A DNA stretch of 41,686 nt from positions 1-41,686 of the forward strand of contig CACZAY010000001.1 of assembly GCA_902779265.1 (NCBI GenBank), written 5' to 3'. Origin of the DNA: an uncultured Bacteroidales bacterium. Its GTDB lineage: Bacteria > Bacteroidota > Bacteroidia > Bacteroidales > UBA3663. The notes under the pieces are model-generated. The model did no database searches. It was not told the origin of the DNA and was given only the letters and a program-made list of their open reading frames with translations. Every line of letters begins with the position of its first letter. Positions within the stretch are counted from its first letter, which is position 1. Below, in pieces: positions 26,246 through 37,179 of the stretch. The position numbers were made by a program, and so were the translations under genes.

Positions 26246-26785
26246 ATGAAACACATTTTTCTAGCTTTGGTGCTTTGTCTTTTTTGCCAATGTTCATTTG
26301 CGCAAAAAATTACGGGGAAATGGCATTGCCCCAAAGAGGTTACAAAGCAGGTCGAAATGGGATATGAAGAATTGTCGTGTGTGTATAAGTTCAAGAAGAG
26401 CGGCAGACTGATTATCAAGATTGAAGGAGTGACAGCCGTTAGACATGGTTTATACTCATCCCATTTCAATCATCAACGGCGTGGTTATATCTGCATTAAA
26501 GGAAAGTACACCATTAGTGATGGGAAAATTTCTTCGATAGTGGAAAATGAAGGAGTAGAAACTTATGCCGTGGAATCCCAGAATTATGATTGGAAGGCTG
26601 AAACACCCGCATCAGAATCTGCATCAGAAATCAGTCGCGAAGATTCTTATGGCAATGCGAGGTCAAGAATACTTCGCAAGAGGCTATTGGTCTATCGCTT
26701 CCTTTGGGACTGGGATGAGGAACCATATTCCGTAACTGACAAGGAACTGAAAATCGGAGAGCAACTTGTCTGTAACCGTCCGTAA
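26246..26785 (+). CDS. Small secreted protein, lipocalin-like, paralogue 1
   Basis: The protein has 179 residues. A signal peptide (HIFLALVLCLFCQCSFA-QK) is followed directly by KITGKWHC. The body VYKFKKSGRLIIKIEG and YICIKGKYTISDGKISSI has the alternating beta pattern of lipocalin-like domains, where GxW opens the barrel; this fold assignment is inference. A C-terminal FLWDWDEEPYSVTDKELKIGEQLV is shared with the next gene. Two cysteines (in KWHC and LSC) are conserved in the pair and could form a disulfide. AT-rich and free of the GGCCRATG motif, unlike the flanking enzymes, so it looks acquired. Function unknown. Confidence 0.7.
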   Translation: MKHIFLALVLCLFCQCSFAQKITGKWHCPKEVTKQVEMGYEELSCVYKFKKSGRLIIKIEGVTAVRHGLYSSHFNHQRRGYICIKGKYTISDGKISSIVENEGVETYAVESQNYDWKAETPASESASEISREDSYGNARSRILRKRLLVYRFLWDWDEEPYSVTDKELKIGEQLVCNRP

Positions 26786-26840: not shown

Positions 26841-27377
26841 ATGAAAAAATACATTCTTTTATCATTGTTTTGTATGTTACCATTCTCCGTTTTTTCACAG
26901 AAAATTACGGGGAAATGGCACTGCACGGCCGAGACCCTTTCGCAGTGTCGTTTGGGCTTTCAGGTGGCCAGTTGTACCTATAAGTTCAAGAAGAATGGCA
27001 CCATGATCATTAAAATCAAGGGCGATTCTTATGTTGGACAGCAACTCTATTCCGGTGACTACGAACACCATTATACTGGCGGTATGACAATCAAGGGAAA
27101 GTATTCCGTCCAGGATGGGAAAATTACGTCTCATGTCACCAAGGAAGACATAGAGACCTACGCTTCCGATATCCCGAATACCACAACAGAAGGTGGCTAC
27201 ACGCCGGCCTATGCCGCTCATGTTGAATACCAAGGTGAGAATACCTATCGGAGCGTCAAGGAAATGGAGTTGCGCCGACGGGCTATGGATTATCCGTTCC
27301 TTTGGGACTGGAAGGATGTCCCGATCAGTTATTCCGGGAAAAGACTGAAAATCGGCGACAAGCTGATAATGCGATAA
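26841..27377 (+). CDS. Small secreted protein, lipocalin-like, paralogue 2
   Basis: The protein has 178 residues and is a tandem paralogue of the preceding gene: signal peptide, QKITGKWHC, YKFKKNGTMIIKIKG, MTIKGKYSVQDGKITS and FLWDWKDVPISYSGKRLKIGDKL. The two differ mainly in the loop around residues 115-145. The spacer is only 55 bases and a strong hairpin terminator follows the stop, so the pair is a closed two-gene unit. AT-rich, motif-free DNA. No function assigned; a binding or inhibitor role would suit the fold, but there is no direct evidence. Confidence 0.7.
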   Translation: MKKYILLSLFCMLPFSVFSQKITGKWHCTAETLSQCRLGFQVASCTYKFKKNGTMIIKIKGDSYVGQQLYSGDYEHHYTGGMTIKGKYSVQDGKITSHVTKEDIETYASDIPNTTTEGGYTPAYAAHVEYQGENTYRSVKEMELRRRAMDYPFLWDWKDVPISYSGKRLKIGDKLIMR

Positions 27378-32297: not shown

Positions 32298-34814
32298 ATG
32301 AAAAAGAATCTACTGACGACAGCTGTGGCATTGGCCTCAATCGTCATCACCGCCACGGCCCAGCAGCATCATCGGCTGTGGTACGCCCATCCCGCATCGC
32401 ACTGGCTGGAGGCGCTTCCCGTGGGCAACTCGACACTCGGAGCCATGGTCTATGGCGGCACCGACACGGAGGAAATCCAGCTCAACGAAGAGACCTTCTG
32501 GAGCGGACAGCCGCACGACAACAACAGCCACGAGTCGCTCGACGTGTTGCCCGAAGTGCGCCGCCTCATCTTCGCCGGCAAGGAATATGAGGCATCGAAG
32601 CTCATCGACAAGCACTTCGTCAAGGGCCCGCACGGAATGCGTTTCCTGCCCCTCGGTAGCCTGAAACTGCATTTCGGCCACACCGACGTGACTGGCTACG
32701 AGCGTGCTTTGAACTTGGCCGATGCCACATCGACCACAACCTATACCTGCAATGGCGTGAAGTACGAGCGGACCGTCTTTGCCTCGCAGGCCGACAGCGT
32801 AATTGTGTTGCACCTGAGAGCCAACAAGAAGGGGGCGCTCAGCTTCAACCTGTCCTACCAGAGCCAGTTGCCCCTCAACGTCGATGCAAAGCATACGTGC
32901 CAGTGTCCGTTAGTGGCTGGAACAGGCAATGAGGGTGGCCGCCTGACGGCTACCGTTCAAGGCGTCGAGCAGGAAGGCATCAAAGCCGGCCTGGCCGCCG
33001 AGTGTCAGGTTAGCGTGCGTGTAGAGGGGAAGAATGCCAGCGTCAGCTTCCCGGAGTCTGCCATTGCCGTGGAAAATGCTACCGAGGCTACTATATACAT
33101 CACGGCAGCCACCAACTATGTGAACTACCACGACGTGAGTGGCGATGCTACCAAGAAGAACAAACAGCGCCTGTTAGCAGCCGAAAGCATCCGGTTCCCG
33201 GAGCTGCTGAAGCGCCATGTACAGAAATATCAGGAGCAGTACAACCGCGTGACGCTCTCATTGGCCAAGAACGCCAACAGCTCGCTCGAGACCGACAAGC
33301 GTGTGGCCGCCTTCGAGAAGGATGCGACCGACCTCGACCTCGTGTCGCTCATGATGCAGTACGGCCGCTACCTGCTGATCTCCTCGTCGCAGCCCGGTGG
33401 TCAGCCGGCCAACCTGCAGGGCGTGTGGAACGACAAGATGAACGCGCCGTGGGACTCGAAATACACCATCAACATCAACGCCGAGATGAACTATTGGCCG
33501 TCGCTCATCGGCAATCTGGCCGAGACGCAGCAGCCGCTCTTCTCGATGATCCGCGACCTGAGTCAGACGGGTGCCAAGACCGCCCGCGAGATGTACGGCT
33601 GCCAAGGCTGGGTCGCCCATCACAACACCGACCTGTGGCGCATCGCCGGCCCCGTTGACGGCACTCCGTGGGGCATGTTCCCGACCGGCGGCGCATGGCT
33701 CACAACCCACCTCTGGCAGCACTTCCTCTACACGGGCGACCGTCAGTTCCTGGTCGATTACTACCCCGTGATGAAGGGTGCGGCCGATTTCCTGCTCGAC
33801 TTCATGCAGACCTATCCCGACACGGGCGACGTGAAGACCGCTGCCGGATGGCTCATGACCGTTCCGACCGTCTCGCCCGAACATGGGCCGCAGGGCAAGG
33901 GCACGAACGTCTGTGCCGGTTCGACGATGGACAACCAGATCTGCTTCGACGTGCTGTCACAAGCATCCAAGGCCGCCCGCGTGTTGGGCAACAACGACGA
34001 TTCGCGCCGGTACGATGCGGCATTGGCCAAGTTGCCGCCGATGCAGATTGGCCGTCATGGTCAGCTCCAGGAGTGGCTCATCGACGCCGACGACCCGAAG
34101 GACGAACACCGCCACATCTCGCACCTCTACGGCCTCTATCCCTCCAACCAGATTTCGCCCTACACGCATCCCGAACTCTTTGCGGCTGCGGCCAATACCC
34201 TTCGGCAGCGCGGCGATATGGCGACGGGCTGGAGCCTCGGCTGGAAGATCAATTTCTGGGCGCGTATGCTCGACGGCGACCATGCCTTCCTGATTATCAA
34301 GAACATGCTGCACCTCCTGCCCGACGACCGTCAGATGCGCCAGTTCCCTCTGGGCCGCACCTATCCGAACCTGTTCGACGCCCATCCGCCGTTCCAGATT
34401 GACGGCAATTTCGGCTGCTCGGCCGGCGTGTGCGAGATGCTCATCCAGAGCCACGACGGCGCCGTCCACATCCTGCCTGCCCTGCCCGAATCGTGGCGCG
34501 ACGGCGAGGTCAAGGGCTTGCGTGCGCGTGGCGGTTTTGTGGCCGATGTGAAGTGGCGCGATGGCCGTCCGCTGTCGGTCAAGATCAAGTCCACCATCGG
34601 AGGTACATTGCGCGTGCGCAGCTATTGGCCGTTGAAGGGCAAGGGCTTACGTCCGGCGTCGGGCGCATGTCCGAATCAGCTCTACGCTCCGGCCAATGTC
34701 AAGTCGCCGCTCGTCTCGCCCGAACTGAAGGAAACGCCATCGGCCACGCTCCGTCCCGTCTATGAATACGACGTCGAGACATCGGCCAACGAGAGCGTAG
34801 TGCTGAGTTATTAG
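32298..34814 (+). CDS. Secreted GH95-family alpha-L-fucosidase / alpha-L-galactosidase
   Basis: The protein has 838 residues, the usual GH95 length, with a signal peptide ending TATA-QQH. The N-terminal sandwich has [19 protein letters not shown] and [17 protein letters not shown]. The helical barrel has the catalytic Asn392 and Asn394 ([13 protein letters not shown]), Glu528 (TVSPEHGP) and Asp702 (QIDGNFG), matching Asn421, Asn423, Glu566 and Asp766 of the Bifidobacterium enzyme AfcA, which works by inversion. [12 protein letters not shown] is also family-typical. It removes alpha-1,2-L-fucose or, in some members on complex corn-type xylan, L-galactose; which of the two cannot be decided here. 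No TAnnTTTG promoter is visible upstream. Confidence 0.92.
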
Positions 34815-34895: not shown

Positions 34896-34925
34896 AGAGA
34901 CGTGCCAATGGCGCGTCTCTACACT
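34896..34925 (+). terminator. Hairpin between GH95 and the triplicated gene cassette
   Basis: AGAGACGTGCC (34896-34906) pairs with GGCGCGTCTCT (34910-34920), with one wobble and a 3-base loop, followed by a T-rich leader. It resembles the terminator at 27386 (GAGACG arms) and would stop GH95 transcription; it could also be a leader hairpin of the next gene, whose ATG lies 35 bases on. Confidence 0.6.
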
Positions 34926-34954: not shown

Positions 34955-35677
34955 ATGAAAAAAATCATTACTTCACTTTTGGCCGCTTCGACCTTCTTTT
35001 TGGCCGATGCCCAGCAGGTCATCAACCTCCTTACCGGAGAGGTGAGGGAGGGAAGTGATGCGGCAGGACCTGTTAAAACCGTTGAAACACTTGATGATGG
35101 GTATTTGGTGACGTATGAGTTTACGGAAGCAGTTCTGGAAAAAGACCCATATTTATCAGATTGTATTTTGTGGAAATATCCTAATTTTATGGTGTCTGAT
35201 ATAAATGGGTCTCCTGCGTTTCCATATCAAAATGGTTGGGTGGATATAGATGATTATACACCAACAATAATGGTGGAAGATAGTAGTTATATGGATTATT
35301 CTTATCAATTGGCTCCAGCATATCCACCTCAACCAATTTCAAATCCTTATTCAGAAATAGAGAGATTACCGATTTCTCCTTATTCTGGCTTTTCCCATAT
35401 TTCTCTTGTGGAGACAATAGGCTTTCGACGATTCTCAGGAAGAAGGCAGGTGCTGTTTACCGTCTATCCCATACAATATAGTTACGAACAGCAGATTATT
35501 CGTGCCTATACGAAAATTTCAGTCAAAATTACCCTTTCGGACAACACGACGGGCATTGAGGAGTTGAAATCCAAGTGCGATGCTTCAAAGTGTAGTTTCA
35601 CCTTGGATGGGCGTCCAGTTAAGGGCAATGTCAAAGGTGTAACTGTCAGAAATGGCCAGAAGATAATTGTCAAGTAG
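34955..35677 (+). CDS. Secreted protein of a tandem triplicated family, copy A
   Basis: The protein has 240 residues. A signal peptide ends FFLADA-QQ, then VINLLTGEVREGSDAA shared by all three copies. The middle (about 45-165) is rich in Tyr, Pro and Asp (SYQLAPAYPPQP, RLPISPYSGF). The last 70 residues (VYPIQYSYEQQIIRAYTKISVKITLS... LDGRPVKGNVKGVTVRNGQKIIVK) are nearly identical in copy B. The segment PIQYSYEQQIIRAYTKISVKI recalls the end of propeptides of C25 (gingipain-type) cysteine proteases, and the tail follows the DGRxx...KGVxxxNGKKIIVK plan of Bacteroidota secreted proteins. Function unknown; a stand-alone protease-propeptide-like binder or inhibitor is a guess. AT-rich with only one GGCCRATG motif, at the signal peptide. 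Confidence 0.7.
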   Translation: MKKIITSLLAASTFFLADAQQVINLLTGEVREGSDAAGPVKTVETLDDGYLVTYEFTEAVLEKDPYLSDCILWKYPNFMVSDINGSPAFPYQNGWVDIDDYTPTIMVEDSSYMDYSYQLAPAYPPQPISNPYSEIERLPISPYSGFSHISLVETIGFRRFSGRRQVLFTVYPIQYSYEQQIIRAYTKISVKITLSDNTTGIEELKSKCDASKCSFTLDGRPVKGNVKGVTVRNGQKIIVK

Positions 35678-35812
35678 CCGGAACAAGCCTTTTTTCAAGC
35701 TCAATATGAAAAGATTATTTTTATTTATTGGAACCATTTTGTTGTTTGCATCCGTCGATGCCCAGCAGGTCATCAACCTCCTTACCGGAGAGGTGAGGGA
35801 GGGAAGTGATGC
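35462..35812 (+). repeat. About 350-base direct repeat, first copy (second at 36210-36560)
   Basis: The 3-prime end of copy A, the 28-base spacer and the 5-prime end of copy B are repeated 748 bases further on as the 3-prime end of B, spacer and 5-prime end of C, with only a handful of mismatches (for example GACAAC to GGCGGC, and GGAACC to GGAAAC). Recombination between the two would delete or add exactly one gene. Confidence 0.9.
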
Positions 35813-36425
35813 GGCAGACCCTGTTGTAAAAGTGGATACAATTGAAAATGGTTACTTGGTAAACTGCGCTTATTCGGAAGCTATTCTAAAACAAGATTAC
35901 GAATTGCCGGACTGTATAATGTGGAGTTATCCTGGTTATATGATTTCTTATCTTGATGAATGTCCTGCATTTCCTTATCGAAACTATAGGCAGTTCATAG
36001 CCGACTTCGCATATACTATAGAAGTAATTGATAGTAGTTATGTCGATTTTTCTTATCAACTCGCACCAGCAGTACCTGTACAACCAAGTTCGCATCCTGA
36101 TGAAGTTGAGAGATTGCCGATATCCCCATATCAAGGATTCCAACCTGTGTCACTTGTCAGTCCATGGGGAATAAGAAAAGATTCCGGGAAACGATATGTG
36201 ATGTATACGGTCTACCCAATACAATATAGTTACGAACAACAGATTATTCGTGCCTATACGAAAATTTCAGTCAAAATAACCCTTTCTGGCGGCACGACGG
36301 GCATTGAGGAGTTGAAATCCAAGTGCGATGCTTCAAAGTGTAGTTTCACCTTGGATGGATGTCCAGTTAAGGGCAATGTCAAAGGTGTAACTGTCAGAAA
36401 TGGCAAGAAGATAATTGTCAAGTAG
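35706..36425 (+). CDS. Secreted protein of the triplicated family, copy B
   Basis: The protein has 239 residues. The signal peptide (MKRLFLFIGTILLFASVDA-QQ) is the same as in copy C but not A. The C-terminal 70 residues are the same as in copy A but not C. Between them, the segment DPVVKVDTIENGYLV differs from the PVKTVETLDDGYLV of both A and C, while SYQLAPAVPVQP and ERLPISPYQGF are like A. This patchwork points to recombination among the copies. The start is ATG 35706; the frame is open further upstream only because the repeat continues from copy A. The 28-base spacer before it is the same as that before copy C. Confidence 0.7.
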   Translation: MKRLFLFIGTILLFASVDAQQVINLLTGEVREGSDAADPVVKVDTIENGYLVNCAYSEAILKQDYELPDCIMWSYPGYMISYLDECPAFPYRNYRQFIADFAYTIEVIDSSYVDFSYQLAPAVPVQPSSHPDEVERLPISPYQGFQPVSLVSPWGIRKDSGKRYVMYTVYPIQYSYEQQIIRAYTKISVKITLSGGTTGIEELKSKCDASKCSFTLDGCPVKGNVKGVTVRNGKKIIVK

Positions 36426-36453
36426 CCGGAACAAGCCTTTTTTCAAGCTCAAT

Positions 36454-37179
36454 ATGAAAAGATTATTTTTATTTATTGGAAACATTTTGTTGTTTGCATC
36501 CGTCGATGCCCAGCAGGTCATCAACCTCCTTACCGGAGAGGTGAGGGAGGGAAGTGATGCCGCAAAACCAGTTAAAACCGTTGAAACACTTGATGATGGG
36601 TATCTGGTGACTTGGGAGTTCTCTGAAGCTGTTGTTAAAAAAGATTATTCATTTTCAAATTGTGTGTTATGGTGTGTCCCTGGGTTTATGGACATGATGG
36701 AAGCCGGTGTGCCAGCCCTTCAGTACAAACTTAATTGGTTGAAAGTCGGTGATTTGATTCCTTCTCCAGTGAAGATTGTAGAAAGCAATTACGTTGATTA
36801 TAATTATCAACTCGCACCAACAATTCCAGCACAGCCTATTGGACAACACCCTTATGACGAAGTGCAACGAATCCCAATCGTTCCGTATGACGGCTTTATG
36901 CCTGATTCAGTTGTAAAAGAATTGGGTTATGACAATACTGATTCTTATACAGGTTATTATGTGTCTCCTTTTCAATATAATTATGAACAACAAACTGTAA
37001 GAGCGTACACTAAAATCGTTTACAAAGTGACGCTTTCTGGCGGCACGACGGGCGTGAAAATGCCATTGGCCAACACCCCGACTATCGAGCCGTTCACCCT
37101 CGACGGACGTGTTGCGACCGATGGCGCACGCGGAATTGTCGTGCGTGGAGGTAAGAAAATCATTTCAAATCACAAATAA
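36454..37179 (+). CDS. Secreted protein of the triplicated family, copy C
   Basis: The protein has 241 residues. Its 5-prime end (signal peptide to GEVREGSDAA) is almost base-identical to copy B; PVKTVETLDDGYLVT matches copy A; the rest is the most diverged, with PFQYNYEQQTVRAYTKIVYKVTLSGG and a different tail (PTIEPFTLDGRVATDGARGIVVRGGKKIISNHK). The last 120 bases regain GC-richness and a GGCC motif (37064), so the AT-rich islet ends inside this gene. The GH43 gene starts 15 bases after the stop with no visible promoter, so it may be read through from this cassette. Confidence 0.7.
   Translation: MKRLFLFIGNILLFASVDAQQVINLLTGEVREGSDAAKPVKTVETLDDGYLVTWEFSEAVVKKDYSFSNCVLWCVPGFMDMMEAGVPALQYKLNWLKVGDLIPSPVKIVESNYVDYNYQLAPTIPAQPIGQHPYDEVQRIPIVPYDGFMPDSVVKELGYDNTDSYTGYYVSPFQYNYEQQTVRAYTKIVYKVTLSGGTTGVKMPLANTPTIEPFTLDGRVATDGARGIVVRGGKKIISNHK

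Follow-up and report, generated by a model that had tools for sequence, protein, structure and literature searches.

Three consecutive genes of an uncultured Bacteroidales bacterium (lineage UBA3663; assembly GCA_902779265.1, contig CACZAY010000001.1) encode small proteins, probably displayed at the cell surface, whose ends are shared among the copies in changing combinations while their middles differ strongly. What are these proteins, how did such a mosaic arise, and what could several differing copies be for? The window considered here is the whole stretch of 41,686 nucleotides (positions 1 to 41,686 of the contig, forward strand), and all coordinates refer to it.

The tandem locus

The three ORFs (A, B and C) are all intact and lie in tandem, with spacers of 28 bases each, between a GH95 gene and a GH43 gene. 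Their features are as follows:

34955..35677, plus strand: gene A, 240 aa; signal peptide, C25-type prodomain, C-terminal sorting-type tail
35706..36425, plus strand: gene B, 239 aa, same architecture as A; 5' end C-like, 3' end A-like
36454..37179, plus strand: gene C, 241 aa, same architecture as A; 3' end as in the single gene of the sister species
35012..35542, plus strand: prodomain core of A (AF2 model m9e264845f340)
35763..36290, plus strand: prodomain core of B
36511..37038, plus strand: prodomain core of C
35005..35061, plus strand: constant block in A, 57 bases, identical in A, B and C
35756..35812, plus strand: constant block in B
36504..36560, plus strand: constant block in C
35147..35455, plus strand: middle of A, diverged and AT-rich, about codons 65-167
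35898..36203, plus strand: middle of B, diverged
36646..36954, plus strand: middle of C, diverged
35462..35815, plus strand: inner-junction repeat 1 (3' end of A, spacer, 5' end of B)
36210..36563, plus strand: inner-junction repeat 2 (3' end of B, spacer, 5' end of C), 748 bases downstream of repeat 1
35543..35674, plus strand: C-terminal tail of A, putative type IX-type sorting signal
36291..36422, plus strand: C-terminal tail of B
37039..37176, plus strand: C-terminal tail of C

The genes sit within a run of carbohydrate-active genes (16743-38820) comprising GH98, GH97, GH31, a feruloyl-esterase-like hydrolase, a CotH-type gene, GH95 and GH43. Upstream of the same glycoside hydrolase region there is a second tandem pair of small secreted paralogs (26246-26785 and 26841-27377; 179 and 178 aa, 'KITGKWHC...'), for which no Pfam match was obtained. 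A 25-base near-palindrome (AGAGACGTGCCAATGGCGCGTCTCT) lies upstream of gene A (34896-34920); it is also present at the sister locus described below and at no fewer than two further sites in the genome (G000:C54 and C27), and represents a dispersed intergenic repeat.

Gingipain-type prodomains without a protease

For each of the three proteins the best Pfam family is Propeptide_C25 (PF08126), matched over the same profile region at scores below the curated gathering cut-off (at best 15 bits vs 22; 11.8 bits for S, the related gene of a sister species). A profile built from A, B and C alone ranked the RgpB pro-domain (4ief) first in the PDB (E 0.32), and an eight-sequence profile, extended by the sister gene and by four relatives at greater distance, matched 4ief at E 4.8e-9 and the Kgp prodomain (5mun) at E 6.4e-4. 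Since the distant members of this profile are themselves C25 prodomains, part of the gain in score is due to them; the evidence independent of them consists of the PDB ranking obtained with A, B and C only and of the predicted folds. In Foldseek searches with two AF2 models, the sole matches at E<1e-3 were the chains of 5mun and 4ief, six in all (9e-8 to 2e-5, probability 1.00), the next-best match having an E value of 0.08 or worse. Both models have low confidence (pLDDT 52 and 59) and are based on a four-sequence alignment, so that loop details cannot be read from them. At the position of the RgpB inhibitory loop the alignment is gapped, and no basic residue can be placed there with certainty in A, B or C.

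When the stand-alone core was searched against the order, the N-termini of complete C25 proteases were retrieved (best E 1e-31 to 7e-26). The three best matching proteases have 750-780 aa, and in them Peptidase_C25 follows directly after the prodomain (E 1e-54 to 1e-61). Among 40 prodomains placed in a tree, A, B, C and S group as one clade (100/99) beside the prodomains of these three proteases. All copies have kept the prodomain signature, which includes the strand region YPIQYxxEQQxxRAYTKIxxKITLS and is common to protease prodomains. No match to Peptidase_C25 (PF01364) was found in A, B, C or S, whose ORFs stop after the prodomain and tail. It is therefore near certain that the three proteins share ancestry with the prodomain found at the N-terminus of family C25 proteases (gingipains). 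The identification of a stand-alone C25-prodomain family is solid, and it is from this identity that we infer the function proposed below.

The prodomains of RgpB and Kgp resemble A, B and C in fold, in length (~180 residues) and in their position right after the signal peptide; there, however, the protease follows, whereas here the prodomain runs straight into a C-terminal tail. The closest prodomains (26-31% identical over the length of the domain) belong to small C25 proteases (~750-780 aa) of other Bacteroidales families (L032/L103, L033/L105 and L034/L104), which, in contrast to A, B and C, carry a full Peptidase_C25 domain. The streptopain (SpeB, family C10) inhibitor Spi is likewise a prodomain-like protein encoded by a gene of its own that inhibits a secreted cysteine protease, but both protease family and fold are different, and spi adjoins speB, whereas for A, B and C no partner gene lies close by, nor has one been found in the genome so far. 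The Bfi proteins (staphostatin-like inhibitors of the C10 proteases of Bacteroides fragilis) are also small proteins secreted by Bacteroidales, with a presumed role in protecting the cell from proteases; unlike A, B and C, they are lipocalin-like rather than propeptides and are encoded beside their proteases.

Mosaic structure of the copies

The sequence-only reading of this DNA had described a tandem triplet with a common block of about 60 bases, and the block identical in all three copies indeed measures 57 bases. The direct repeats of ~350 bases with a period of 748 bases were recovered as well: positions 35460-35819 are identical to those 748 bases downstream at 344 of 360 sites (~96%), and the period corresponds to one 720-base gene plus its 28-base spacer. 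The spacer and signal peptide held to be common to B and C show 97-100% DNA identity, the 3' end held to be common to A and B shows 89-98% over roughly the last 70 codons, and the stretch in which A was said to equal C where B differs could be located at codons 39-53. When compared in 15-codon windows, B and C are 97-100% identical over codons 1-30 and A and B 91-100% identical from about codon 181 to the end, while all pairs drop to 33-75% in the middle, where the overall DNA identity of the three genes is only 51-61%.

The longest matching runs of polymorphic sites comprise 37 sites for AB, 16 for AC, 14 for BC, 15 for AS and 17 for CS. Each of these five runs exceeds the maximum reached in 5000 permutations of site order, which shows that the mosaic is not due to chance. 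The earlier proposal of recombination that left constant ends and differing middles is thus well supported by the three copies, and it is strengthened by the sister locus.

The sister locus and probable unequal exchange

A relative of A, B and C was detected in one of the 14 congeners searched, Bacteroidales bacterium UBA3663 (G002; contig DFJU01000025.1). It is a single gene (S, 242 aa) placed between the same GH95 and GH43 genes. Its 5' side, i.e. the upstream spacer and the signal peptide, is A-like (95-100% over codons 1-30), and its 3' end is C-like (91-100% at the last codons). S thus combines an A-type 5' end with a C-type 3' end, and B a C-type 5' end with an A-type 3' end, so that their make-ups are reciprocal. 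As judged from these sequences, it is well supported that the ends of B and S correspond to the two reciprocal products expected when an A-like gene at the start of the array and a C-like gene at its end undergo unequal exchange. In their middles, B and S are close to neither parent, and hence the ends must have been exchanged or re-homogenised after the middles had diverged.

The two species differ to varying extents along the locus: GH43 is 96.6% identical (dS 0.11), GH95 89.8% (dS 0.23) and the CotH-type gene 80.7% (dS 0.60). The dS of the shared cassette ends (~0 to 0.17 on the 5' side) makes them as young as the GH43 flank. In the middle (codons 65-170), dS is at least 1.16 in every pair, i.e. 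near saturation, and dN is 0.42-0.69. Set against values of ~0.1 for the ends and the GH43 flank, this points to old diversity held between recently shared ends: with synonymous sites near saturation, the middles are old rather than freshly mutated. Pairwise Nei-Gojobori counts place the dN/dS ratio of the middle below 1 in every pair (~0.17-0.59), which indicates purifying constraint and gives no support to positive selection; the ratio above 1 looked for in an antigenic-variation family was not observed. A variable middle between constant ends, which in such a family would distinguish strains, was seen between the paralogs and between the two species. The view that the ends are kept constant while the middle diversifies stands as far as the sharing of ends is concerned, but active diversification of the middle is not supported, with a dN/dS below 1 in every pair.

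The middles are AT-rich (G+C content of 37-40%, and 25-33% at third positions), while the GH95 and GH43 genes have a G+C content of 61%; the nearest full-length proteases have 33-34%. An AT-rich origin of the middles is plausible on these compositional grounds. The possibility that the three middles were each acquired separately, from different proteases, was considered and ruled out, since the four stand-alone middles belong to one clade, also in a tree built on the middle alone (99/96).

The GH95 gene is a second mosaic gene at this locus. A central block of ~370 bases (32834-33201) gives no nucleotide alignment to the sister-species ortholog, while the parts on either side are ~94% identical to it. 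The replaced block suggests that importing short central blocks is nothing unusual at this locus, and a dedicated cassette-swapping mechanism need not be invoked.

Export and distribution

The tail formed by the last ~45 residues ('FTLDGR...GV.VR.GKKII.K') has ~40 matches in the genome and, in the ORFs inspected, is C-terminal in unrelated proteins of the genus; no NCBIfam model matched it at E<=1. The genome encodes the type IX sortase PorU, directly followed by a gene that reads as PorV-like, and PorU-type genes are present in 14 of the 15 genomes of the genus (stand-alone prodomain genes in two). The recurrent C-terminal tail, together with the PorU and PorV-like genes, makes export of A, B and C by the type IX system likely, and the proteins are probably anchored at the surface.

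Searches of the genus, the order (393 genomes), the class (395 genomes), viral contigs and plasmids revealed no further intact stand-alone members, and the family is thus known from two genomes, both incomplete metagenome bins (83% and 69%). The short prodomain ORFs inspected in other families were rejected as members: two are at contig edges (L097 and L098), one adjoins a transposase (L073), and in three others the catalytic part follows at once in another frame, apparently as a result of frameshifts (L035, L061 and L096). The open-access literature yielded no stand-alone C25 propeptide (most subscription papers lay outside this search).

No C25 catalytic domain other than that of PorU was detected in the draft genomes of either species carrying the family (G000, 83% complete; G002, 69%), an absence that is provisional given the incompleteness of both bins. 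No protease partner adjoins A, B and C, whose neighbours are the GH95 and GH43 genes. C25 proteases other than PorU are present in two congeners (G005 and G013), but their prodomains are only distantly related to A, B and C. In several Bacteroidales, C25 proteases (L032, L034, L035, L100 and L101) come after a gene for a secreted phage-tail-like or S74-chaperone-like protein, with either nothing or one small secreted gene in between, as judged by eye.

Proposed function and alternatives

Gingipain prodomains hold their protease latent by means of a loop placed in the active site (PMC13366090). Isolated recombinant gingipain propeptides inhibit the mature cognate protease in trans and do so selectively, with a Ki of 12 nM for RgpB and 2 uM for Kgp (PMC3677877). 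In Streptococcus pyogenes the propeptide analogue Spi, encoded beside speB, is a separate inhibitor of SpeB (PMC2873492). Against this background, a prodomain-only protein that is exported and has been kept in two species is most simply explained as an inhibitor acting in trans. Its targets are probably foreign, since the draft genomes of the two species with the family show no C25 protease except PorU while the congeners G005 and G013 have such enzymes; the enzymes of these congeners also mean that potential targets exist in close relatives. We therefore favour the reading that A, B and C are surface-displayed, trans-acting inhibitors of foreign C25 proteases, and that copies with different middles cover several targets (probability of roughly 0.55). 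Of the earlier guess of 'antigenic or inhibitor families', the inhibitor half gained from the finding that the domain is a prodomain of gingipain type, since such prodomains are known to inhibit the protease they belong to, and the antigenic half lost ground with the dN/dS ratios.

According to this inhibitor model, the proteins would leave the cell by means of a Sec signal peptide and then the type IX secretion system, and would probably become anchored at the surface. When a foreign C25 protease arrives from neighbouring Bacteroidota, the beta-barrel prodomain would dock on the protease's catalytic domain and obstruct the active site, much like the covalently linked prodomain of pro-gingipain. 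A set of copies with unlike middles would serve against several target proteases, while unequal homologous recombination through the shared ends would change copy number and the ends of the copies, leaving the old middles apart. Inhibition in trans, foreign targets and target breadth as the reason for several copies are all steps that we infer.

Other explanations have to be weighed against this one. The prodomain fold might have been re-used as a scaffold for surface antigens or binding proteins, with immunity, phages or the choice of ligand keeping the middle diverse. Constant ends, old and strongly different middles and predicted surface display do give the locus the look of an antigen family, and the genome has no cognate protease; nevertheless, all copies retain the signature common to protease prodomains, and dN/dS is below 1 in the middle, which leaves this as a possible but unlikely alternative. 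It is less probable still that the genes are remnants of a C25 protease that lost its catalytic domain, i.e. a drifting prodomain-tail leftover amplified by chance. The order does contain broken C25 genes of which a prodomain ORF is left (the transposase-associated L073 and the apparently frameshifted L035, L061 and L096), but here two species have four intact ORFs between them, each with a signal peptide and with tail and stop codon in frame, they have been duplicated, and dN is lower than dS across an old divergence.

Prodomains act as folding helpers too, and A, B and C could therefore be trans-acting helpers or regulators of an endogenous C25 protease, either one missed by the assembly (the genome is 83% complete) or PorU, itself a C25 peptidase. 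We rate this slightly lower than the remnant explanation, as neither genome has a C25 catalytic domain besides PorU, and PorU-type genes occur in 14 of 15 genus genomes, as against only two for the stand-alone genes. An artefactual triplication of one or two genes during assembly is very improbable: the inner-junction repeats (~350 bases) are longer than common short reads, but the middles differ in 39-49% of their DNA and the two repeats at ~4% of bases, and the copies are thus distinct sequences. The order of the three copies could nonetheless be wrong.

Taken further, the inhibitor reading leads to a more tentative proposal, which we regard as somewhat less likely than not to hold in full: that A, B, C and S represent a new family of free gingipain-prodomain inhibitors, secreted and displayed by a commensal that itself lacks such a protease, maintained as a recombining tandem array and shielding the cell from a spectrum of C25 proteases that other bacteria secrete by the type IX route, in effect a prodomain-based immunity repertoire.

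Proteases of the gingipain type serve the Bacteroidota as major secreted weapons and as nutrient enzymes, and their prodomains are under study as selective inhibitors. With both reciprocal hybrids preserved in two species, the locus provides a clean natural example of how unequal exchange acts on a short array of genes. If the proposed function is correct, this natural set of free prodomains would offer naturally diversified inhibitor sequences for studying the determinants of specificity, and bacteria would be using the prodomain cap as a shield against the proteases of others.
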